Below are positions 39,903-64,000 of a stretch of DNA of 64,000 bases, in pieces (within the stretch, counting starts at the first letter, position 1; the number at the start of each line of letters is the position of its first letter). The DNA is from Limnomonas spitsbergensis (Eukaryota > Chlorophyta > Chlorophyceae > Chlamydomonadales): positions 1,612,001 to 1,676,000 of the forward strand of contig JAYJMM010000028.1 in assembly GCA_037349105.1 (NCBI GenBank). The letters are read 5' to 3'. Under the pieces are notes generated by a model. The model did no database searches, had not been told where the DNA came from, and worked only from the letters and a program-made list of their open reading frames with translations. The translations under genes were made by a program, and so were the position numbers.

Positions 39903-40599
39903 CGGCTGTCGATCCTATTTCAAAATCATGGGGGTAGAAAGGCAGACAGGAAGAAATTAAACGCCGGATCGTGTCTTAGGACAAGTAAGGAAACAAACGA
40001 TCGGCATTTTGTGTGGGTACATACGGTATCAGCTTCACACTTATGCAGCTTCACGCTTAATCCGAGTCGGTTGGGTCGGGAATCGCCAGTGGAAACACGG
40101 TCTAAGGCTGTGTTTCCATTGGAGTTTGAGGTGAGCAGTCGGACAGGTCGGTTTTGTTCGGTCCGCGCCAAAGTTTAAGCCCGAGGTAGAGACCATAGAA
40201 AAATCCGGCCTTCGTTTCCATTGCATGTCCGGGGTGGCCGATTCGCATTCAAGAACCTCGCAGGCTAAGATTTTCGAAATGTCACAGCATTCCTTGGTAG
40301 TTATTAAGTTGCGTTTGTTGTGCTGCTGCAAAACGAATCGCGCTATCGGCTTGTCCATGCGTAGTGGCATTGGGCGCAGCTGGCAACGCTCTTTCGAAAT
40401 TTCTGCACCTATGTAGCTTGAACACGTAGATCAAAGCAACCAGTGGTGCTTACGTATACTATTGCTTTATTTCGGTTCAGTCGCGCATGCTGCAACGCAA
40501 CGACGGGGTAGAAATCGTCACGTGAGGTTCCGTGGGCCGGGACAGCCAGTCGACTTCCATCGAACCAGCAGAGTTTATCAGCGGTATGAATACAGGAGA
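39903..40599. promoter_or_regulatory. Intergenic region between divergent genes
   Basis: About 700 bp separate the VPS13-like start (minus) from the ORF at 40600 (plus), so any promoters here would be divergent. No clear TATA box stands out. It contains the hairpin at 40086-40122 and a leader-like stretch (40426-40520) that resembles the inside of the element at 55361-55795. Confidence 0.35.
40086..40122. repeat. 13-bp stem hairpin
   Basis: CCAGTGGAAACAC is followed by an 11-nt spacer and then GTGTTTCCATTGG, a 13-bp stem with one wobble pair. A third partial copy of the arm (CGTTTCCATTG) lies near 40208. The arrangement is typical of a small foldback-element remnant. Confidence 0.5.
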
Positions 40600-41700
40600 A
40601 TGAGCACAGTGCTCAAAAAAACAAGGCTGCGAAGTATTGTCCAGCTGGCGTTTGGGGTGGATGTCACCCAAACTCACTTCGGGTCTCGGACCGCCATGCA
40701 GTATCCTGTAAGCGCGTCTCATGATGTTCTGACACATAAAGAGTTTAAGGGTGTGCCAGCCAATGATGCTGAGATTGCTTGCTCGTGGTCAAGACTCAAG
40801 CTGATTAGTAACCTTGAGAGGTTTACGCTAGAGTTCGCACAACCACAAACTGAGGGTTACTATATGCTTCTTCGTCAAGAGGAGCACATTCTCAAGGCTC
40901 TCATGGACATTCCGGACCAAAGTAGGGTGAGAAGCAATAAACTTGCATTCTTCTGGTTAAACAAATTAATGGCAGTCCACGAGTTCCTGGACGATAGCTT
41001 AAAGAGTACTTTGTTTATAGCCATGCACAGCAATGAAGAGCTGCCTTCCGCCATGAAACCGCATGAGCAATGGCAAGATGAAATTGCCATGCACAGTCAT
41101 GCAGAGCTGCCTTCCGCTATCATGGCGCACGAGGTGATTTACTCAGAAACTCCCTTGTCCACACATCCCCCAACGCATGACAGCATCAATGTGTGCTCCT
41201 CCAAAGCCAAGCCCATGCAGGAAACTGATTCCGTTGAGAAGTACAAGACCACACGAGGTGGAGAGGGCAACCGTATGCCGCGTTCCTCCGGGCCCATCCT
41301 GATTGACAGTGCTCCACGAATTTGGTCATTCACGACTTCAAAGGTGAAGGATTTGTTTGGGGAAGGCCTAGACAAACACACTGATGTTCCTAAGATTCAA
41401 GACAGATTAGACAGATACATCCGTCCTGATGACATGGGTGGGGGTATGCAACCTAAGGGGCATAGAGCTGAGACTTCCATGGACAGTTACCCGGTCAGTC
41501 AAGAGCATGTCATTGAAACAGAAGAGCTCAGTGAGTTTTCCTCAGGCCTAGAGACTCCGGTGCGCATGGTGCATGAGGTACACCGACAGAGTGGGAATTT
41601 CATAATGGAATCATGGGGGCCTAGAAGACAGGTTTTAATGGCTTCTGAGCTATGCTTTGAGCAAGGCAAACCTTCATTTGAGATTAAAATTCCTATCTGA
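40600..41700 (+). CDS. Orphan 366-residue protein with an internal duplication
   Basis: I do not recognise this protein. The in-frame ATG at 40600 gives 366 codons ending in TGA at 41700; the frame is open further upstream but without an ATG. The N-terminal part is basic and mixed alpha/beta in character. Around residues 145-190 a segment of about 21 residues is repeated: IAMHSNEELPSAM and then IAMHSHAELPSAI. The C-terminal half is polar and probably disordered. No signal peptide, membrane segment or nuclease motif is visible. It could be a real gene, a retrogene or the coding part of a mobile element: it lacks obvious introns, unlike the two certain genes here, and is followed at once by long hairpins. 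Confidence 0.45.
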   Translation: MSTVLKKTRLRSIVQLAFGVDVTQTHFGSRTAMQYPVSASHDVLTHKEFKGVPANDAEIACSWSRLKLISNLERFTLEFAQPQTEGYYMLLRQEEHILKALMDIPDQSRVRSNKLAFFWLNKLMAVHEFLDDSLKSTLFIAMHSNEELPSAMKPHEQWQDEIAMHSHAELPSAIMAHEVIYSETPLSTHPPTHDSINVCSSKAKPMQETDSVEKYKTTRGGEGNRMPRSSGPILIDSAPRIWSFTTSKVKDLFGEGLDKHTDVPKIQDRLDRYIRPDDMGGGMQPKGHRAETSMDSYPVSQEHVIETEELSEFSSGLETPVRMVHEVHRQSGNFIMESWGPRRQVLMASELCFEQGKPSFEIKIPI

Positions 41701-41715
41701 TAGTCGTTTCTGATA

Positions 41716-41788
41716 GTCGTTTCTGTGCTTGAAACAGAAGCACAGAAACAAGTCGTTTCTGTGCTTCTGTTTCAAGCACAGAAACGAC
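41716..41788. repeat. Perfect 34-bp inverted repeat (hairpin 1)
   Basis: Left arm 41716-41749 and right arm 41755-41788 are exact reverse complements with a 5-nt loop. Each arm contains the near-palindromic core GTTTCTGTGCTT...AGCACAGAAAC, so several alternative folds exist. It starts 15 bp after the stop codon of the 40600-41700 ORF and follows a direct repeat of GATAGTCGTTTCTG. Confidence 0.95.
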
Positions 41789-41866
41789 TTGTTTCTGTGC
41801 TTGGATCCATGGGGCACTGGTCAGTCGCCAGTGCCCCATGGATCCAAGCACAGAAACAAGTCGTTT
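41782..41866. repeat. Perfect 39-bp inverted repeat (hairpin 2)
   Basis: Left arm 41782-41820 and right arm 41828-41866 are exact reverse complements around a 7-nt loop. The distal part of each arm repeats the CACAGAAAC core of hairpin 1; the loop-proximal part is GGATCCATGGGGCACTGG. The two hairpins overlap by 7 bp, so they form either two stems or one larger compound structure. Confidence 0.95.
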
Positions 41867-42923
41867 GAAAATGTGGACCATGCAGAGTGTGATCCGAACC
41901 AGTTCACACTTTCATCCGCACAGAGCATTGCGAAGTCGGAGCTTAGCCAGATGTGAATTGACACCCGTCAGGGTGTGAGTGAGTGTGTACAGTTTGTACC
42001 CGTCTCTACCCCATTTGTGATGCATGATCACTGCCAGATGCTTGTCCACTGCGAGATGCTTGACCGCTTCGAGACGCTTGCTCCCTCCCTTTCTACCCAA
42101 AGCCAGGGTGTACACCTTCTTCGTGCGGCCCTGGATAAACCAACGGTTAAGGGTTTCCACAGCCCCCACCTTCGGTAGCGTGGCAGCGTCATGGTGATGT
42201 TCGGTTGACCTGTCCTTGGTCAATGTTAGTTTAATAACTTCTTTTGTTTCCTTCTCGCATGGTGACCCATGCAATTAATGTAGCACTGCCCGTTATAGCA
42301 GTTGGATGGTGCCTCTAGAGGCTAGTTGTAATGCCGCTGCTGTTCTTGCCTTCTCAACTTTGATTGACTCTCTAAGAGCCAGATATGTACGATGTGTATT
42401 GCAATCTGCTATGCTGTACATCCTGTTGATACGAACAACGTGTTCATACCTGCTGGTTACTACCTGCTTGTTCACACTGATGGTACGCCCCCGAATGTTC
42501 ACACATACAACAATTGCATCATCTGGTGGTACACACCTGTTCATACTTGCGTGTTCACACCTAGTTGTACGTACTCCCGGTTCACACTTGGATGTTGACC
42601 ATAAATGTTACAACTACCGTGATGTGCTGTCTTTTTCAGTAGACATATTCGCAAACACTAACTCCTAATTCCTGATAGGACTGTTCTAAATGCAGTCTCC
42701 TGCAGGACTGCTAAGCATGCCTATTGTCCAGCTCAAAGCTGGTTTATGATCACAGCTCAGAGCTGGGGGGGGCTGTCTGTACATAAGCATGCTTTATTTT
42801 TCTTTGCTTAAAACTTTTCCCTACCCATGGTTCCTCCCATGTGCAGAATGGTCCAGTGAGTTATCAATCGCCAACCGAATGCAGCGCACACCGCAGCGCA
42901 CACCGTATTGAGCAAGCTTCAAC
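41867..42923. other. Intergenic stretch with scattered GTTCAYAC motifs
   Basis: No convincing gene. GTTCACAC or GTTCATAC appears about six times between 42440 and 42590, and once each near 41900 and 46090. A run of eight G follows AGCT at 42761-42772. A minus-strand frame at 41912-42274 has no recognisable domain. Confidence 0.4.
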
Positions 42924-45360
42924 ATGATACTACTGCATGCCTGCAGAGTACTACTTCAGACTCCTCAAACCGGTGTAGTTAACCCTTGTCGCGTAATGTC
43001 TCAAATGCATTGTAGATGTGCTATGTCTGACGATACTGTTAAGGCAACCGAAAGAGTACTCAGGCTAGTAGAACGCCATGTACTGCAGTTCTATCAGAGC
43101 TGGGGATGTACTGGGACTTATAATGGGGGACTCTGATGACCCTGATGTGCAGCAACATCACCTATTCCAGCAGCAGCAGCAGCATCTTGCTGAAAAGAAG
43201 AAAATCAATAACTAAGAAAGCGACAGGTTAGCTAAGTGGGACCAGGCAAATATTAGAGAGTTCGCTGGTTATGAGTTTCGTTCTGGTCCCGCGTGGTCCC
43301 CATCTTTAGGGGGACCCGGGATGCGCTCTGGGCTCCCACGTGTCGGGGGCCCCGGGCCAAGCCGTGAGTCTCCACCTGTCGGAAACTCCGGCAGAACAGC
43401 TACTGTGCCTCCATTTGTCGGAGGCCAGAGCCCTATGAATCCTCCACCTGTCGGAGGTTCCAGAAGAGTTGAAGGGCCCCCATATGTCGGGGGCCCCATC
43501 TTCATTGGTGAGCCTCTTAATGTCGGAGGCTCCCTTAGCAACCGTGGGCCCTCACATGTCGAGGGCCCCGGACATAGCATTAGGCTTCCAATTGCCGGAA
43601 GCTCTAGCAGTGGCCCAGCTGGTGGCTATTCGCAATTCTTTAGCGTTGGAGAGCTGGGATTTTCAGTGTGAACCTCTGTTGAATGGGATCTAATTCCCTC
43701 CCACCTTCTCCACCTCTATGGAGTAGCTCAGGATGCGGAGGCCGTGATTGAGTTCAGGCATGAGCAGTCGACCCGTTTCGGAGAGGACTGCGTTGCTATT
43801 CAGCAAAGGCGCCTAATTTGGCGGCTGCTCTGCAAATTGTCCCCGGGCCATGTTTTCGATGAGGAAATGGAGGTTTTCAGAGTTGTCCTTAGCTTTGTGA
43901 AAGGTCGCCACACTGACTATGCCTTTATGTCAGATCTGGTGGTTGCGCAGTCTGAAGCTGACAGCCTCATGAACGTTGACCGTCGCTGGAAATTTTCGCA
44001 GTTCAAATGACTGTTACGTAATGGAATTAAAATCAACCGCTACTTTTATTGCGATTCAGACTCTTCTGCTAGAAAGATAGCAATGTATAGAGTAAGGTTA
44101 TTTCACCTACAATGTCCTACACTTTTGGATACAGATGTGTGCCTCAATTCCTTCACTAACCCTCCGCAGGATGTATACAAGATCCAAGAGTCAAGTCTTC
44201 TTAACATCGGCTTTTTAGACGGGTGTCAATGGCTGCTGTGTGCAGGATTTATGTGTTCTGACCTTTCTTCTGCTGGGTTAAAAACTGGATTACATGGTAC
44301 TAAAAGTTCTGCTTTCTTCCCACTTCTCAAGATATTGGGTACGACTCAAGCTCTACAAGTTAATCAAGCTCCTGTGATTTATTTTATAGAGAACACAGCA
44401 ATACAATTCGCCAAGGGTCAATCTGCTGACATGCGTTAATCATTTACTAAATTATGTGAGCGTCTGGACATCTCTGTTACATTTGACGTTGTTGCTGTTG
44501 GTGTTTTTGCTCACTGGTTAATGAATTATTGGTGCAACATCTGTGCGCCTACTGCCTTGCAATTGATCTGAATTCCTTTGTCAGGGATCCTGATCTTAGA
44601 CTTGCAGATGTTCTGGAGCCCAACCGTCAAGCGCAACTGTGCAAATTGGAGCACCGCTATCCGGGCCTTACCACGCTGTCAACAAAAAAGGCCACCTACT
44701 TCAAGTGTTACCTACTCTGGTTGCATGAGTTCACTCATGGGCCTTCAGCAGAGACGGTGCGGGGCTAGTTTGGGAAGACAACAAACTGTTTGACCTAACT
44801 AATTTAAAAAGAGAACGGATTCTTGGCTATGCAGATCACTGCACTTCAGGCAATGGTGCTTCTTTCGATGCTAGACACAAAGTCAATGGAGGAGCTTTTG
44901 ATGTAAACGTCAGAAGTCATCTTATTGCTGCCAGCTTTGCATATAAAGCTGCTGATTTCTTGCAGCCCTCACAACAGAATTTAGTTGCTGCAGTTTCTTG
45001 CCTAGAGCTGGGGGGGAACGAAATCCTGATCAAAATTTGACAAATTTATTTGCATGAGTAGCTGACATGATTTTTCGTGCAGCTCAGGCAGAAGCTGCAG
45101 AATTGTCTGAGGCAGACATTCAACCTGTTAATGAGGAGATGATGTTAACATTAATGCAAAGGGTGCCACTCATGAGGGTGCAATTCATCGTGCTGCTGCA
45201 CCCAAAATTGCTGTTGCACCCAAAATTATTGCTGCACCAAACCATCCTAAATTAACCTTGATTCCGGTACCACTGAGAATGGGGGCAAGGGATAGGCAAC
45301 CTGTTCGTTCATTTAATGCGCTGTCCTCTTTGTCCTCATGTCCTATTGCTGTGTGCTGAC
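42924..45360 (+). pseudogene. Decayed coding stretch, probably from a mobile element
   Basis: On the plus strand a series of frames can be read with interruptions: a Gln-rich segment before a TAA near 43212, then LAKWDQANIREFAGYEF and the Pro/Gly repeat, a frame at 43744-44010, one at 44083-44439 (with PVIYFIENTAIQFAKG), one at 44529-44768, and further pieces to about 45357. The order (Gln/Pro-rich start, then enzyme-like segments, then a G-run at 45006-45016) suggests a retroelement, and the FIENTAIQ segment is loosely like the catalytic region of retroelement RNase H. I could not assign a family. At least four stops or frameshifts break it. Confidence 0.35.
43295..43604 (+). repeat. 36-bp-period array of self-complementary hairpins
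   Basis: Nine stem-loops follow one another. Loops of the last eight begin at 43338, 43374, 43413, 43446, 43482, 43518, 43554 and 43590, that is steps of 36, 39, 33, 36, 36, 36 and 36 nt. Loops are 7 nt, of the form ANNTGTC (ACGTGTC, ACCTGTC, ATTTGTC, ATATGTC, ACATGTC; the last is AATTGCC). Stems are 5-8 bp and differ between units yet pair internally: GGGCCCCC with GGGGGCCC, GAGCCTCT with GGAGGCTC, GGGCCCTC with GAGGGCCC, GCCTCC with GGAGGC. All steps are multiples of 3, and the plus frame reads PxVGG-type repeats of 12 residues. Two rows have a single mismatch or wobble. Confidence 0.85.
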
Positions 45361-46861
45361 TTGATTTTGCATACAACTCAAACATTAGCTGCTGAGTTGA
45401 TATATGTAGTTGTGTTGCATAAGCACCCTGTTCGGCCGGTGAAAAGTGCGTAAGTGCGGTACCTACATAAAACGTTAGATTTAAAAATAAATTAGATATG
45501 GACCTGCGTTGGAGTGATATGTGTACTGGGTAACTACATAGGGGTAATGGTGCTAATTTGAGTTCTGCTAGCCACTCTGACCTTGAGACCCAGTGATGAT
45601 TCCAAATGCGGTGGGAGTACTGCCACTGCCCTGTGCTAAAATTACCTGGTCAGTGAAATTGTGGCTTAATTACGGCCAAAAGTCATAGATCCTGCATGGT
45701 AACCATTTTATGGTTGGAAGGAGCTATTTTGTTGTTTAGCATTGTGATACGCCGCTCTATTCTAAAACTGCGGCCTAGATCTTACCTCTATCTGATAGCT
45801 AGGTGTTGAAGGACTGCTTGTACTCTGCTGCCATACCTGTTGGGGTCATAATGTCAGGCCCAGTGTGGTCCTACCAGTGCCGCCGCAAGGATGTGATACC
45901 CAGAGATGGGACAGTTTTAAACCATGACCTGCTTCCCATGCCGCTTGTATGATCATGATGATCTGAGAATTTAAACTTCTGTTAGATTGTGATTTACACC
46001 CTGTGTCAATCATAATCCAACGAGTACAGATCAATTAATTGTATGAATCAATTAATTGTACTGTGACACAGGTTTGATTTTTAGTCCACACTTTTAAACG
46101 GGTTCACACTTATGCATGTTCCTGTTGATTTTGGCTATGTTGAGTCCCTTGCTGCATTGTGTACCCAAATTAAAGCTTTCTTACCGTAGCTGCTTTCGCC
46201 CGCAAGATCGGCTGTGGAGGATGTTACCTTGAAGACTAAGGCCCCAGCGCAACGGCGCCTGGGGACCGCAGCCCCATCCGGAATCAGTCCAAGGTCCTCG
46301 CCAATTACGGAGCTAGATGAAAATAGCATCAGCCACTGCCCTGGGATTTTTCTGGCAAGTCTTGAAACGTTTCTCCAGAGCTGGCTTAATTTGTGGAAGG
46401 TTCCTCAACTACAACTGATTGGCTATTGCAATTTAGAACTCTAGTTACCATAGGCCATTAACAATTGCTGTCAATTTGAAGATTTTGTCCCACGCACGGC
46501 TGTTGTGCGTTTAGCTTTTAGCGTTTGTTTTGACTTCAGCTTGCGACGGTTATTTTTGGCTAAAGACAGTCTCAAGGCTTTCATCAGTAATTTGCTGATC
46601 TGTTTCTGCAGTGACATTGAACCAAGGTAACAAATCTTGTTATTCAGCTGATTTACTTCTCAAAAGTTCTATGATTGAACTAAGTAAAATTCGTAACCCT
46701 TAATGAAGGTTAAGCTGTAGATTTTTAAGAATTTCCCCTGGGGATTTTTCACCCTTTTTGACAGTCCTCTATAAGTGTCTCCTTCGTATCTTATTTCGGA
46801 CTGGGGGGGAGTGAGATCGTCTCTTTGATACTTGCTTTATCTGTTTGCTGTACTTGCGCAG
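45361..46861. other. AT-richer interval without a recognised gene
   Basis: Only short frames. It contains a 14-bp direct repeat ATCAATTAATTGTA at 46030-46043 and 46047-46060, and a G-run (CTGGGGGGGAG) near 46801. Nothing else stands out. Confidence 0.4.
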
Positions 46862-47302
46862 TCATTTACTAGGCGCAGCGCTTAGCCCCGACAAATTTGC
46901 GACGAAGGGTCGGCCGACAGGAGGTGCATAGCCGGGGCAGCTGGAAAGCTCTCGCAACACCACAACATCAGGGGTCGCTTGGGTCGCTACATCCAAAGAT
47001 AGTAGCTGCTGCTGCGGGCTCTCGGGTGAAGCCTCAGCAGCAGGACCAGCAGCTGTTGCTAGAGCGAGAGGCTCTACGGCAGCCGCATGCTCGATAGCAG
47101 CAGCCGGAGCAAGAGCAGAAGGAGTAGCAGGAGTAGAAGAGTAATATAATAATGTGATTGTGCGCTGTCGCTTCGTCGATTGCTCCTTGGCCAGCCTCTC
47201 GGCTCCTCTCTTGCACTCCTTCCCCTGTTGGTGATTCTTTAAGGCCACTGGGTTGTCTGTGAATTTTAAGACCTTCAAACAATGCTCACAGCAGGTTGTC
47301 AT
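46862..47302 (-). CDS. Small C2HC zinc-finger protein, 146 residues
   Basis: The frame opens at ATG 47302 and runs 146 codons without an intron. The N-terminus MTTCCEHCLKVLKF continues to NHQQGKECKR, giving Cys-x2-Cys, then His-x5-Cys, a plausible zinc-binding finger. A basic stretch with TKRQRT follows, then an Ala/Pro/Gln-rich tail. BED-type fingers at the start of hAT transposases have a similar layout, but no transposase core follows. It could be a truncated element protein or a small DNA-binding protein; the low-complexity tail limits confidence. Confidence 0.4.
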   Translation of the reverse strand: MTTCCEHCLKVLKFTDNPVALKNHQQGKECKRGAERLAKEQSTKRQRTITLLYYSSTPATPSALAPAAAIEHAAAVEPLALATAAGPAAEASPESPQQQLLSLDVATQATPDVVVLRELSSCPGYAPPVGRPFVANLSGLSAAPSK

Positions 47303-47530
47303 TGCTTAATTCATAGCAACTACCAATGCAGCTACACCGTGTGAGTCCATAATGGGTGTACGCACAGCCGTGCATGTGGTTCCAGAGCCATGGCACCCCC
47401 CCATGCCAAAATTGCATGCCAGGAAGGGTCTGGTATTCGGTGTGGAATTTTTTATGACGCATATCTGTAGCAAATGACAGTAGGAATGCAACGGTGTAGC
47501 TATCGTCTCAATGTGATGTTAAAAAAAAAC

Positions 47531-48644
47531 GTGGGGATCTTTGACACCTTCCCCGGGTGTCTTTTGGTGTCTTTACTTTTCTTGAACCCTTCGCTCTTTT
47601 TCAGGGTTGTTTTCTTTCGGGTGCGAACCACCATCGGCGTGTTAGTGCGATAACGCACGGTCTGCAACAACTTTTTCTGCCACCGGCAGTAATCGAACTC
47701 GCGACCTCCGCTTGATTAGTATCGTCGGTGCTAGGCTGTAAGCGACTGACACCAGTACTGCATTAGTCACGGACGATTACGTTGGGTGGGTGGCGGGCGA
47801 GAGGTGTCATCGCCGCGCGGCCAAAGAGCTTTTCGAATACATATCGCCTACACCCGACGTTGGGTACAATGGAATCGCATTGCTTATGCGCTGCTTTTGA
47901 TCGAGGCCGCGCTTGCGGCAGAACACTTCGTGGCAACCCACCCCTGGCTTGGCCTGCGGGGCGTCGTCAGCCGTCGCTTCGGCATAGTAGGTTTGGTGTG
48001 CGTCTTTTTTTTTAGGGATCTCCTTCATGGAAGACTGTAAAAAAAGTGTGCCTAGAAAAAAAAAGTGACTAAAAAAACAAAAAGAAAAGAGAAAAGACGG
48101 TCACCAAACCTACTATGCCGAAGCGACGGCTCACGACGCTCCGCAGGCACAGGCCAGGGGTGGGTTGCGACGTAGTGTTCTGCCGCAAGCGCAGCCTCGA
48201 TCAAAAGAAGCGCATTAGCAATGCGATTCTATTGCACCCAACGTCGGCTGTAGGTGACATGAATTCGAAAAGCTTTTGGGCTGCGCGGCGATGACACCTC
48301 TCGCCCGCCACCCACCCAACGTAATCGTCCGTGACTAATGCCGTACTGGTGTCAGTCGCTTACAGCCTAGCACTGACAATACTGATGAAGCGGAGGTCGC
48401 GAGTTCGATACCTGCCGGTGGCAGAAAAGTTGTTGCAGACCGTGCGTTATCGCACTGACACGCTGATGGTTGTTCGCACCCGAAAGAAAACAACCCTGAA
48501 AAGAGCGAAGGGTTCAAGAGCAGAAAATACACCAAAAGAAACCCGGGTAAGGTGGCAAAGATCCCCACTATTTTTTTTATTTTTTGTAGTCACTTTTTTT
48601 TCTAGGCACACTTTTTTTACAGTCTCCCATGAAGGAGATCCCTA
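47531..48644. mobile_element. Large inverted-repeat element, ~467-bp arms
   Basis: Left arm 47531-47998 and right arm 48102-48568 are imperfect reverse complements along their whole length (ends GTGGGGATCTTTG... and ...CAAAGATCCCCAC). The 103-bp centre contains a segment (48013-48071, GGGATCTCCTTCATGG and A-runs) that recurs inverted at 48587-48644. The layout is therefore L, C, L', C'. The C to C' interval (48013-48644) looks like a 632-bp element with about 58-bp terminal inverted repeats, and L is an inverted copy of its inside. Each arm carries GAGTTCGATAC or GAGTTCGATTA, close to a Pol III B box. No transposase frame is present. Confidence 0.75.
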
Positions 48645-60482: not shown

Positions 60483-63400
60483 CCGCGCCCGGGTGTGACA
60501 TATCCAACACCGGCACGTTGCCTTGGATAGCTGGGATTTTGGTATATTTGGCCACCCCTGCCAGCTGCAGGACCATCTGCTGCAGCAGCTGCATGTTCAT
60601 CCTTGTCTGCTCCCTATCGAGCCTCTTCATTTCCTGGTCGCTGGACTCCCGCCTGGCCCTTGGCCCGCGCCTGTCCGCTCCACCTGACCCCGACTCGTCT
60701 AAACTGGAGTCTGATCCAGATCCGCTACTGTCGCCCCCTGATGGGCTGCGACTGCGCTGGTACTGGCTGTTTCTGCGGCCAGCCCCATCCTGGGCTTGTC
60801 CGCCCCCGGACGACTGTCTGCCGGCCCCGCTCGCGGAGCCTCTGCTCCTCTCGGGTGGCGGCTGATCAGCCTCATCTCTGCTTTTTCTCTCCTCTGGGCT
60901 AGACTCCCGAGGCTGTGATCCTCTGCCGGATTCTGCCTGCCCCCTGGGCGGCTTCTGGCTTGGCTCGCCTGGCTGTGTCCTCCTGCCGTATTCTGCCGGC
61001 CCCCTGGGCGGCTCCTGGCTCTGCCAGTTTGGCTGTTTCCCTCCTGTGTAATTCCTGACGTAGGAATCAGATTGCGTTTCCCCTCTGGTTTCCTGCCTTC
61101 TTGGTCCACTGCTGCGCACACTGCCTGCAGGCTCGTCCTGTTGTGTTCCTCTTGCTGCGCCCTCTTGCCTTTTCCTCAGGAACTTCTCGATGTAATCCAC
61201 CTGGGTTTCCTGGCCTGTGTTCTCTTTGTCCTCGATTATGCGCAGGAGTGCATAAGACTCTTGCCTGTTTGCTCTGCGCGTTGCTACGCCTTGCTCAGCC
61301 ATCCTGGCCAGCGATCGGCTAGTCAACTCCGCCCTTTCGCTGGCGGCTGGGCTACTGGCCCTGGGCTCTTCCCTGCCCCTTGGCCGCCCCCTGAGGCTTG
61401 GCTCGCTGCTGACCTCAAAAACCTCAGATCTGAGTGTTGGGGTTGGCGCGGTTCTTGCTTGCTGCTGCCACCTTTGGACTTCCCTGAGCTCCTCAGGCCG
61501 CTGCCCCGCTGTTTTAAATCCTTCCCATGCCTGGTCCTCCTCATCTTCTGGCTCGGATCCCGGTTCCACCTGATTTCCTGTTACCTCATTGCACCACTCA
61601 TCTGCGAAGGCCTTAACAGCCAGGGCTGCTTCGCGTCCAGCCCTTCCCTTGGATACCTGTCCAAGGGCGCTTAACAGCGTCGCCCTGTCCTGCCCTGTGT
61701 GGGGGATACCCAGCATGGCCTTTGTTGCCCATCCCCTCAGATGATGGGCCTTGAACTCCTCAATGGCTGTGACCTGGTCCTGGAAATGCAAGAACGTCCT
61801 GGAGCAAACTTGCTTCCACAGGTCTGTTGCCCACTGCAAAATTCCTGCCCAACCGATCGGTCCTTCTGACTCCTCATTGCCGCACACTACTCCCCCAGTC
61901 CCGGAGCGCTCTGGCTCTCTAGGTCTGGTATCCTGCGCCTGTGCTGTACCTTGATAAAATCCGCGCAGGATTTCCTTGTGGCCGCCGCCTGCTCGCATCT
62001 GGCTGCTAGATCCCTCCTTGGGTGTCTGCACAGGTCTGCCCACACTGGGCGTAAACTTGGACAGCGGCGTCCCGTAAACTGTGGATCCCGCCCCTCTTTG
62101 AACCGGCACCCTGCGTGGTCGCATTGGCTGCCTTGGGCGCAGCCCTGTCACTGGCTGCCGCCCCTTCTCTTCTTGTATCGGATCAGGCAGCTCTTCCTCA
62201 GATATTAGGTCAGCCCACGGCTTTCCCACCGGTACAGCTGACTTTTCCTGTGGTTCTTTGCTGCTCTGCGGGGCCTGCCTGGTCACAGCAGGCTTGATCT
62301 CAGCTCCCTCGCGCTTGATCTCTGCATCACTGGCCTCAGCCGGGTCCTCACCCGGCTCCAGCCCCCTCTGGATGTTGGCATCCATGAGGTGCTCACATGC
62401 ACTGTCGCTGTGCTCGCACTCGAACCCGCAGAACATGCATACTCTTCCGGGGTAATACCTCATGGCCTGACGCATGGCATTGCGGGTGTCCATCTGCTGC
62501 TGACGGTCACCTGTTGCGCAATCCTCCCAGAGCCTGGCCAGCTCCACATCTGCAGGCACCGCAGCAGGGAATGCTACCAGGCACACATTCCTGCTGCTGC
62601 TGTTGTTCACGGGTGCTGGCACCGGAGACCTGCTGCTCCTAGCTTCATCCACGTCACTGTCAGCTGCCCTGTCTTGTGGCAACAGCGTCTGCAGTTTCTT
62701 TGCCAAGCGACGCTTCATCATCCTCAGCTGCCTGGTCATTCTCATCTGCCAGGCAATCCCTGGCTGCCTGGCCATCCACAGCTGCCTGGCCATTCCTTTG
62801 AGCTTCTGCTGGTACCAGTTCACCTTTTCCCTCAGCATGGGTATGGAGATCCCCTGCTCCTCTGACCCCTCAGGATTCTCTGCCGCCTCCAGCTGTTTGC
62901 TGGCCTGCTGGGCCGCACCTGGTTCTGATATTGGCACCTGGACCCCTCCTGGAGCTGCTGGCACTGGTGGTGTGACAGGCCCATCTTCTTCTGGCTGGTG
63001 CATCTGCACCAGCACCGGCGCCTGCCTGTGCTCGTGGTCCTCAACCTCACTTGGGCCAACTGGTTCCTCAGCCACCCTTTGGGTCAGCTTCTGCTCCCAC
63101 GGATGCAGTTGGTCCGGCTCGCAGCCGCCGGCCACCACAGGTGTCACATGGGCTGCCTCCCTCGACAAACACAAACGTGACGCCTGCACCTGCAGTTGGC
63201 CTGGCTCACAGCCACCGATCCCTACAGGTGTCACAGGAACGTCCTCCTTCTGCAAACACAGCCGTGATGCCTGCACCTGCAGTTGGTCTGGCTCACAGCC
63301 ACCGATCCCTACAGGTGTCACAGGAACTGCCTTTCTCTGCAAACAGAGCCGTGATGCCTGCACCTGCAGTTGGTCTGGCTCACAGCCACCGATACCTACA

Positions 63401-64000
63401 GGTGTCACAGGAACTGCCTTTCTCTGCAAACACAGCCGTGATGCCTGCACCTGCAGTTGGTCTGGCTCACAGCCACCGATCCCTACAGGTGTCACAGGAA
63501 CTGCCTTTCTCTGCAAACACAGCCGTGATGCCTGCACCTGCAGTTGGTCTGGCTCACAGCCACCGATCCCTACAGGTGTCACAGGAACTGCCTTTCTCTG
63601 CAAACACAGCCGTGATGCCTGCACCCGCAGTTGGTCTGGCTCACAGCCACCGGCCACCACAGGTGTCACAGGAACGTCCTCCATCTGAAAACACAGCCGT
63701 GACGCCTGCACCTGCAGTTGGCACGGCTCGTGGCCATCGGTCACCACAGGTGTCACATGAACTGCCTCTCTCTGCAAACACAGCCGTGACGCATGCACCT
63801 GCAGTTGGCCTGGCTCACAGCCAGCGGCCGCCACAGGTGTCACATGGGCTGCCTCCCTCGGCAAACACAGCCTTGACGCATGCACCTGCAGTTGACCTGG
63901 CTCACAGCCACCGATCCCTACAGGTGTCACAGGAACTGCCTCCATCTGCAAACACAGCCGTGACGCCTGCACCTGCAGTTGGCCTGGCTCACAGCCACCG
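60412..64000 (-). CDS. Gag-like polyprotein, N-terminal part outside window
   Basis: An open frame of more than 1,190 codons running from the window edge to a TGA at 60412. The visible N-terminal 300 residues are a 29-residue tandem repeat. Then come acidic linker, a basic helix (MARQLWMARQPGIAWQMRM), a Cys/His cluster (VCMFCGFECEHSDSACEHLM), a helical region with WAGILQWATDLWKQ and FADEWCNEV, and a long Arg/Ser/Gly/Pro-rich tail with SRSPSGGDSSGSGSDSS. The end, MSHPGAVAAKNILPSVWLLG, overlaps the downstream Gag-like frame. No protease or reverse transcriptase motif is present. I infer a retroelement structural protein or a domesticated derivative. Confidence 0.5.
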   Translation of the reverse strand, partial: GGCEPGQLQVQASRLCLQMEAVPVTPVGIGGCEPGQLQVHASRLCLPREAAHVTPVAAAGCEPGQLQVHASRLCLQREAVHVTPVVTDGHEPCQLQVQASRLCFQMEDVPVTPVVAGGCEPDQLRVQASRLCLQRKAVPVTPVGIGGCEPDQLQVQASRLCLQRKAVPVTPVGIGGCEPDQLQVQASRLCLQRKAVPVTPVGIGGCEPDQLQVQASRLCLQRKAVPVTPVGIGGCEPDQLQVQASRLCLQKEDVPVTPVGIGGCEPGQLQVQASRLCLSREAAHVTPVVAGGCEPDQLHPWEQKLTQRVAEEPVGPSEVEDHEHRQAPVLVQMHQPEEDGPVTPPVPAAPGGVQVPISEPGAAQQASKQLEAAENPEGSEEQGISIPMLREKVNWYQQKLKGMARQLWMARQPGIAWQMRMTRQLRMMKRRLAKKLQTLLPQDRAADSDVDEARSSRSPVPAPVNNSSSRNVCLVAFPAAVPADVELARLWEDCATGDRQQQMDTRNAMRQAMRYYPGRVCMFCGFECEHSDSACEHLMDANIQRGLEPGEDPAEASDAEIKREGAEIKPAVTRQAPQSSKEPQEKSAVPVGKPWADLISEEELPDPIQEEKGRQPVTGLRPRQPMRPRRVPVQRGAGSTVYGTPLSKFTPSVGRPVQTPKEGSSSQMRAGGGHKEILRGFYQGTAQAQDTRPREPERSGTGGVVCGNEESEGPIGWAGILQWATDLWKQVCSRTFLHFQDQVTAIEEFKAHHLRGWATKAMLGIPHTGQDRATLLSALGQVSKGRAGREAALAVKAFADEWCNEVTGNQVEPGSEPEDEEDQAWEGFKTAGQRPEELREVQRWQQQARTAPTPTLRSEVFEVSSEPSLRGRPRGREEPRASSPAASERAELTSRSLARMAEQGVATRRANRQESYALLRIIEDKENTGQETQVDYIEKFLRKRQEGAARGTQQDEPAGSVRSSGPRRQETRGETQSDSYVRNYTGGKQPNWQSQEPPRGPAEYGRRTQPGEPSQKPPRGQAESGRGSQPRESSPEERKSRDEADQPPPERSRGSASGAGRQSSGGGQAQDGAGRRNSQYQRSRSPSGGDSSGSGSDSSLDESGSGGADRRGPRARRESSDQEMKRLDREQTRMNMQLLQQMVLQLAGVAKYTKIPAIQGNVPVLDMSHPGAVAAKNILPSVWLLGITQQTGAVG
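63110..64000 (-). repeat. 87-bp coding tandem repeat, 29-residue unit
   Basis: About ten units of 87 bp continue to the window edge. Consensus peptide parts are ASRLCLQRKAVPVTPVGIGG followed by CEPDQLQVQ. TGCAGTTGG, for instance, recurs at 63191 and 63278. Four central units are almost identical while the outer ones are diverged, as expected from expansion in the middle. Each unit carries two cysteines. Confidence 0.95.

Follow-up and report, generated by a model that had tools for sequence, protein, structure and literature searches.

A remnant of a retrotransposon gag frame in Limnomonas spitsbergensis carries nine tandem hairpin units whose stems change from unit to unit and remain largely paired. 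The units lie in a stretch of 64,000 nucleotides (hereafter the window, in whose positions all window coordinates are given). The preliminary description of this DNA had proposed that a peptide and a nucleic-acid structure may share the sequence, and pairing, folding, arm-similarity and two-sided-change tests support this, with a structural constraint at the nucleic-acid level. As to function we infer, tentatively and at somewhat less than even confidence, that the array is a multivalent cis-acting hairpin element overlapping coding sequence in the gag of a Ty3/gypsy-type lineage with a putative DNMT, perhaps read by Gag itself.

The array has 30 matches in the 260-Mb genome, itself included, at identities of 84–100%, and 28 other loci were aligned to it. 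Besides the family of the window (family 1), a second family (family 2; L032, L033, L034 and L036) carries the same array, about 85% identical. The features are as follows.

40689–46893, plus strand: stretch with alignments to other element copies; a truncated version compared with locus L016, where terminal repeats are present
43216–43671, plus strand: open frame of 151 codons from one stop to the next, which spans the array; a remnant of gag containing PPxVGG-like repeats
43294–43604, plus strand: nine-unit hairpin array; each unit has 8-nt arms on either side of a 7-nt loop, and a spacer of about 13 nt follows
43294–43316, plus strand: unit 1, 6 of 8 pairs in this register, loop ATCTTTA
43330–43352, plus strand: unit 2, 8 of 8 pairs including one G-U, loop ACGTGTC
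43366–43388, plus strand: unit 3, 7 of 8 pairs, loop ACCTGTC; pair 4 is a covarying T-A
43405–43427, plus strand: unit 4, 6 of 8 pairs, loop ATTTGTC; displaced by 3 nt
43438–43460, plus strand: unit 5, 6 of 8 pairs, loop ACCTGTC
43474–43496, plus strand: unit 6, 8 of 8 pairs, loop ATATGTC; pair 3 is G-C, and A-T in family 2
43510–43532, plus strand: unit 7, 8 of 8 pairs including one G-U, loop TAATGTC, which reads AAATGTT in the majority of family-1 copies
43546–43568, plus strand: unit 8, 8 of 8 pairs, loop ACATGTC; pair 7 is a covarying T-A
43582–43604, plus strand: unit 9, 7 of 8 pairs including one G-U, loop AATTGCC; pair 5 is a covarying T-A
44011–44568, plus strand: methyltransferase-like segment, 85% identical to the frame at L012, with one TAA inside

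That nine consecutive units each fold on themselves was borne out for 43294–43604, where 64 of the 72 stem positions are paired, 60 of them as Watson-Crick pairs; units 1, 3, 4, 5 and 9 hold one or two mismatches each. The 36-bp period described earlier fits most steps and fails around unit 4, where the spacing is 39 and then 33. The fold of unit 1 favours a register shifted by one base with an 8-nt loop, the unit 3 stretch pairs differently when the whole array is folded, and in family 2 the pairing of unit 9 is mostly gone. The plus frame is open through the array, as had been stated, and a minus frame (43269–43580, 103 aa) is open as well.

Several known kinds of sequence were considered and rejected. 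An ordinary minisatellite was set aside because the array is absent from the Tandem Repeats Finder list and its spacers are 35% identical between units, with arms at 64% and loops at 65%; the spacer value still exceeds that of shuffled letters (25%; none of 2000 shuffles reaches it). Core sites of a tyrosine recombinase were rejected since the unit arms differ while their complementarity holds. Nor is a known RNA family represented: the Rfam 15 covariance models gave 16 matches at E ≤1 in window positions 40000–48000, none within 43294–43604 and none at gathering score. Sub-threshold microRNA matches in Rfam arise from long nested palindromes with CAAGCACAGAAAC units at 41697–41865, which lie partly in a stretch missing from other copies; about 120 bases at 41697–41817 are specific to the window. 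Elsewhere in the window, positions 1–24874 hold some 1777 copies of a 14-bp satellite (ACAATCAAGGGAGG), across which frames stay open for thousands of codons, and positions 63104–64000 an 87-bp tandem repeat. A tandem array whose spacing is also 87 bp directly follows the family-2 Pol frame at L049 (4149–5138).

The observed pairing was compared with 20,000 shuffles per control, the rows shuffled being the window, L012, L016, L033 and L032. When arms were permuted between units, the mean was 58.6 paired positions and 32 shuffles reached 64 (three on Watson-Crick pairs only); when codon columns were permuted, 48 reached the observed pairing (Watson-Crick, none); and when synonymous codons were shuffled across the array, the mean was 52.5 and none reached it by either count. 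The preliminary description had made its case depend on codon-preserving shuffles. The full shuffles uphold it, as does the mildest control, in which synonymous codons are shuffled within a codon column, on Watson-Crick pairs only (43 of 20,000 reach); with G-U pairs counted, this last control is not passed (1919 of 20,000).

Changes in one arm had also been said to be matched on the opposite arm, and this proved correct: five of the eight stem pairs change on both sides (2.3 in shuffles; 11 of 500 reach this), such changes occupy 10 cells (3.6 in shuffles; 0 of 500), the covariation score is 0.472 (0.309; 1 of 500) and 88.9% of cells are paired (81.3%; 2 of 500). The number of further pair types gave no signal (9 vs 9.6 in shuffles, 441 of 500 reaching it). 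Between units, the similarity of 5' arms tracks that of 3' arms (r 0.46, p 0.011) and arm similarity tracks neither spacers (0.07) nor loops (0.03); common ancestry of the units therefore does not explain the covariation. At the protein level, amino acids covary as pairing requires (Gly-Pro, Glu-Ser, Ser-Asn, Leu-Ser, Ser-Glu).

Folding gave a similar result in the three rows that were folded (window, L016 and L033). The window array has an energy of -162.8 kcal/mol vs -128.3 (sd 6.5) in codon-preserving shuffles, with 0 of 300 reaching it, and L016 and L033 likewise beat all 300 codon shuffles each. On the minus strand, too, folding is stronger than in codon shuffles (z -4.63 for the window). 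To calibrate the method, the same test, with 100 shuffles each, was applied to 18 312-nt stretches of the family-2 locus L037. The 14 stretches off the array gave z values from -3.55 to +0.10, three partly overlapping it gave -1.91, -1.67 and +1.08, and the array-centred stretch gave -4.13; the array is thus the most extreme and, as another gag stretch reaches -3.55, other structured stretches exist in this locus.

A constant ANNTGTC loop had been reported. Its T (the third position of the variable codon) is present in 252 of 252 loops and its A (which ends the preceding codon) in 249, counted over 28 rows of related copies that are not independent of one another; elsewhere in the L037 gag, T and A make up 123 and 91 of 482 third bases, respectively. 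The A and T of the motif are therefore held, and its GTC part varies: it departs from the motif in units 1 and 9 and in family-2 unit 8, and among the 24 family-1 copies read, 20 depart from it in unit 7. Hairpins with the loop motif and stems of at least five pairs were found nowhere outside the array on either strand of L037, L049, L014 and L048. The array thus shows a shared loop motif on paired stems, as a packaging-signal array would.

Variation among copies was counted in 21 of the 29 aligned rows (the window and L009–L028), leaving out L029, the partial rows L030, L031 and L035 and the family-2 rows L032, L033, L034 and L036; expected values were taken from base context in the upstream reference (42760–43289). 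The arms are variable at 14 of 144 sites vs 39.4 expected, and neither loops (12 of 63 vs 14.7) nor spacers (22 of 105 vs 26.8) are depleted. At third codon positions of the arms there are four variable sites vs 9.4 (P 0.026). In the 11 copies with a common upstream 1-nt deletion that breaks the frame, the arms have nine variable sites vs 16.0 (P 0.035), no codon position being significant alone (third positions, 2 vs 3.8, P 0.26); the remaining 10 copies have six vs 28.2. Variants found in at least two copies are scarce in arms (5 vs 20.7) and in loops (3 vs 7.5, P 0.048), while private variants number 9 vs 21.6 in arms and 10 vs 8.3 in loops. Part of the arm shortage can be an effect of the peptide, as the arms code for conserved Pro and Gly. 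Private variants occur at 69 of 529 upstream sites in the 21 copies, so most of them probably predate insertion and go back to a time when the element was active; selection could then have acted on them, and correction of one arm from the other fits equally. The shortage of private arm variants would accordingly fit selection or a copying mechanism alike. Among the arm changes in the 21 copies, eight remain paired as G-U, one adds a pair and five break one, with no clear preference. In family 1, G-U occupies 91 cells vs 88 for A-C, an equality that would not be expected were plus-strand RNA all that mattered and that leaves RNA not proven over DNA.

Between the families (L012 or L016 vs L033), the arms of units 1–7 differ in units 1 and 6 only. 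The single arm difference in unit 1 adds a pair; in unit 6 a G-C has become A-T by change on both sides, and one C-G has become T-G. The mismatches of units 3, 4 and 5 are present in both families. L033 has lost two pairs of unit 8 and three of unit 9, and L034, from the long-frame family-2 element, two of unit 7, indicating that not all nine units are strictly constrained.

Family 2, as seen at L037 and L049, is a Ty3/gypsy retrotransposon with reverse transcriptase, RNase H and a DDE integrase in Pol. Its gag-like frame, which exceeds 600 codons and contains the array, is followed by the Pol frame, which matches RVT_1 (E 9.9e-21), RT_RNaseH (E 4.4e-27) and, after the reverse transcriptase, rve (E 1.1e-10), and has in addition H2C2, a PHD finger and a methyltransferase-like domain below the Pfam cut-off. 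Homologues of Pol, up to 51% identical, are found in Chlamydomonas eustigma. None of 49 Pol homologues showed a PPxVGG-like array, only P0016 having at least two matches to the loose motif, and no gag homologue was found at E 0.001 among 2877 candidates in the protein collection. Assignment to the DIRS or tyrosine-recombinase class is not supported: no tyrosine recombinase was found in the six frames of L014 or in the family-2 frames, and family 2 has the DDE integrase instead.

The window family is probably a deletion derivative, as one window-family stretch aligns to each end of a family-2 segment. No reverse transcriptase, integrase or RNase H was found in L014 (six frames, Pfam at E 0.1, X at stops), in a search insensitive enough to miss the weak DNMT match given by the single L012 frame. 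That match, to PF00145, has E 0.0022 in L012 and 0.0052 in L049, neither of which clears the curated cut-off. In the genome 803 candidate places were found for the methyltransferase-like segment; of the 150 scored, many are 51–58% identical and lie in open frames as long as 2253 codons. The frames of the four methyltransferase loci inspected upstream (L044–L047) lack such an array.

This element is multi-copy and recently mobile and has split repeats. L016, of the window family, shows a DIRS-like arrangement A ... B A B, with A at both ends and a 68-bp B flanking the second A. Copies start with TG and end with CA, and six of the seven with both ends visible have matching 4-bp flanks. Two terminal repeats are present in 12 of 20 loci, and in nine of these the pair differs at 0–2 sites (10 in L023, 8 in L027 and 3 in L028), so the insertions are young. 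L011 and L017 stop after the first B, without the second A and B, yet have matching 4-bp flanks: one element occurs in two integrated forms. In the array region, 4-nt insertions are seen in L019, L021, L024, L028 and L029 and a 4-nt deletion in L020 and L023; this length equals the target duplication of the element, and the insertions in L024, L028 and L029 copy neighbouring bases.

Further sets of hairpins occur in the same lineage. Terminal repeat A (L016 8539–8668; also L039–L041) contains four with a constant loop AGCACAAACAC and differing stems, the second having a C-G in all three family-3 rows and a T-A in family 1; with four units, this covariation is suggestive only. Family 3 (L038–L043) has a 33-bp Pro/Gly unit in one to four copies at the corresponding place in gag, its stem being GGGCCCCC/GGGGGTTC and its loop 4 nt long. 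At least one unit is mismatched in L039, L040 and L041, and the two family-3 units that were folded did no better than dinucleotide shuffles (z -1.5 and -0.5). It is possible, though we regard it as doubtful, that the lineage repeatedly builds arrays with variable stems and fixed loops, comprising the 36-nt array shared by families 1 and 2, the 33-nt array of family 3 and the four AGCACAAACAC terminal-repeat hairpins; these would form a multivalent cis code, read through the loops, overlapping coding sequence and serve as a mobilisation ticket for derivatives devoid of reverse transcriptase and integrase.

For the array itself, we propose that each unit of about 36 nt would present a near-constant ANNTGTC loop on a GC-rich 8-bp stem, the stem being free to drift in sequence while it stays paired and the A and T of the loop being held. 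The functional form would be RNA: plus-strand element RNA may offer a row of loops to a protein, most likely the element's own Gag as first candidate, and this presentation may serve packaging or dimerisation of the RNA, a role suggested by analogy with Ty1 RNA and the packaging signals of RNA viruses. A mobilisation signal read through its loops would explain why the array has been kept in a derivative in which no reverse transcriptase or integrase was found.

Paired change between tandem copies had been taken to point to selection on structure or to a mechanism that writes one arm from the other. The paired change stands, and the two causes are not fully separable. Template switching between the arms, during replication or reverse transcription, might rewrite one from the other, and the hairpin would then need no function. 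Template switching is reported to generate and keep hairpins (PMC8794818) and to homogenise hairpin arms in coding sequence (PMC8604942), and the shortage of private variants in arms and not in loops would fit it. It does not account for the constant loop bases, however, and inverted loops, a by-product of switching, are absent among all 252. The mismatches of units 3, 4 and 5 are identical in both families, and the compensated change in unit 6 is accompanied by an uncorrected T-G. Together, the lack of inversions, the stable mismatches and this T-G disfavour frequent rewriting of arms, and we consider copying an unlikely source of the pattern. Distinctly unlikely, in our view, is that the PPxVGG Pro/Gly repeat of Gag is all that is selected and the hairpins merely follow from the complementarity of CCN and GGN codons. 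The arms do consist mostly of Pro and Gly codons, the sister family has a different Pro/Gly repeat at the same place, and the within-column control is unexceeded when G-U is counted; but full synonymous shuffles never attain the observed pairing or energy, the amino acids themselves covary as pairing requires, the third bases in the loop are constant, and the hairpins of the terminal repeat are not in the gag region.

The active form might also be a hairpin of single-stranded DNA or a cruciform, used in reverse transcription or integration, rather than RNA. G-U is not favoured over A-C, Watson-Crick-only tests are stronger than those with G-U, and the minus strand folds well too (z -4.63), all in favour of DNA; against this, the integrase of the family-2 relative is of the DDE type (rve, E 1e-10) and the array is far from the element ends. 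To our knowledge, such integrases do not use internal hairpins, and we hold this form to be quite improbable. Chance, or a palindromic repeat unit inherited without upkeep, could draw on the mildest codon control and on the relaxed pairing of family-2 units 8 and 9. Arm similarity is independent of spacers and loops, however, so joint inheritance gives no covariation, and arm variants are scarce; this explanation, already disfavoured, retains a very slight probability.

If the array is indeed a cis signal read through its loops, its nine natural variants show what the reader needs, namely a paired stem and a fixed A and T, and such a signal would help to explain the continued mobility of deletion derivatives. 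Covariation between tandem units, not between species, here reports nucleic-acid structure under coding constraint, and the array offers a case in which selection and template-switch correction could be distinguished.

Among green-algal elements, TOC1 of Chlamydomonas has unusually arranged repeats and, internally, 76-bp units in tandem; we know of no hairpin covariation in it. Matches in viral contigs to a loose two-loop pattern (at least 120 stretches, with one match each among the 80 listed) were taken as chance. The preliminary description held that no element of this layout had been described. This does not apply to the host element, which is of a described kind: KnitGypsy-Dnmt3 of Klebsormidium nitens has Gypsy domains, a cytosine methyltransferase in Pol and DIRS-like repeats (PMC5890265). 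It is matched here by the reverse transcriptase, RNase H and integrase of family 2 and by the split repeats of the window family, from which family those repeats are known; it differs in that the DNMT match here is below the Pfam cut-off and in that the main text on KnitGypsy-Dnmt3 mentions neither a hairpin nor a PHD finger (PMC5890265). For the array the statement is upheld within the titles and abstract openings listed, where no tandem hairpin array of this kind in a retrotransposon turned up. Coding palindromes in the mitochondria of Nematomorpha resemble it in that both arms of an inverted repeat encode protein, and differ in being perfect and up to 284 bp long; their abstract describes no tandem 36-nt units sharing a constant loop (PMC6649704). 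The RNA of Ty1 has cis-acting packaging and dimerisation hairpins with functional loops, and is in this respect similar; these comprise a pseudoknot and two kissing hairpins, and not a tandem array of nine variants of one hairpin (PMC5454406). The packaging signals of RNA viruses are dispersed over the genome rather than arranged in tandem; in both, many stem-loops offer a common loop motif, which in the viruses is presented to the capsid protein and here would perhaps be presented to Gag.
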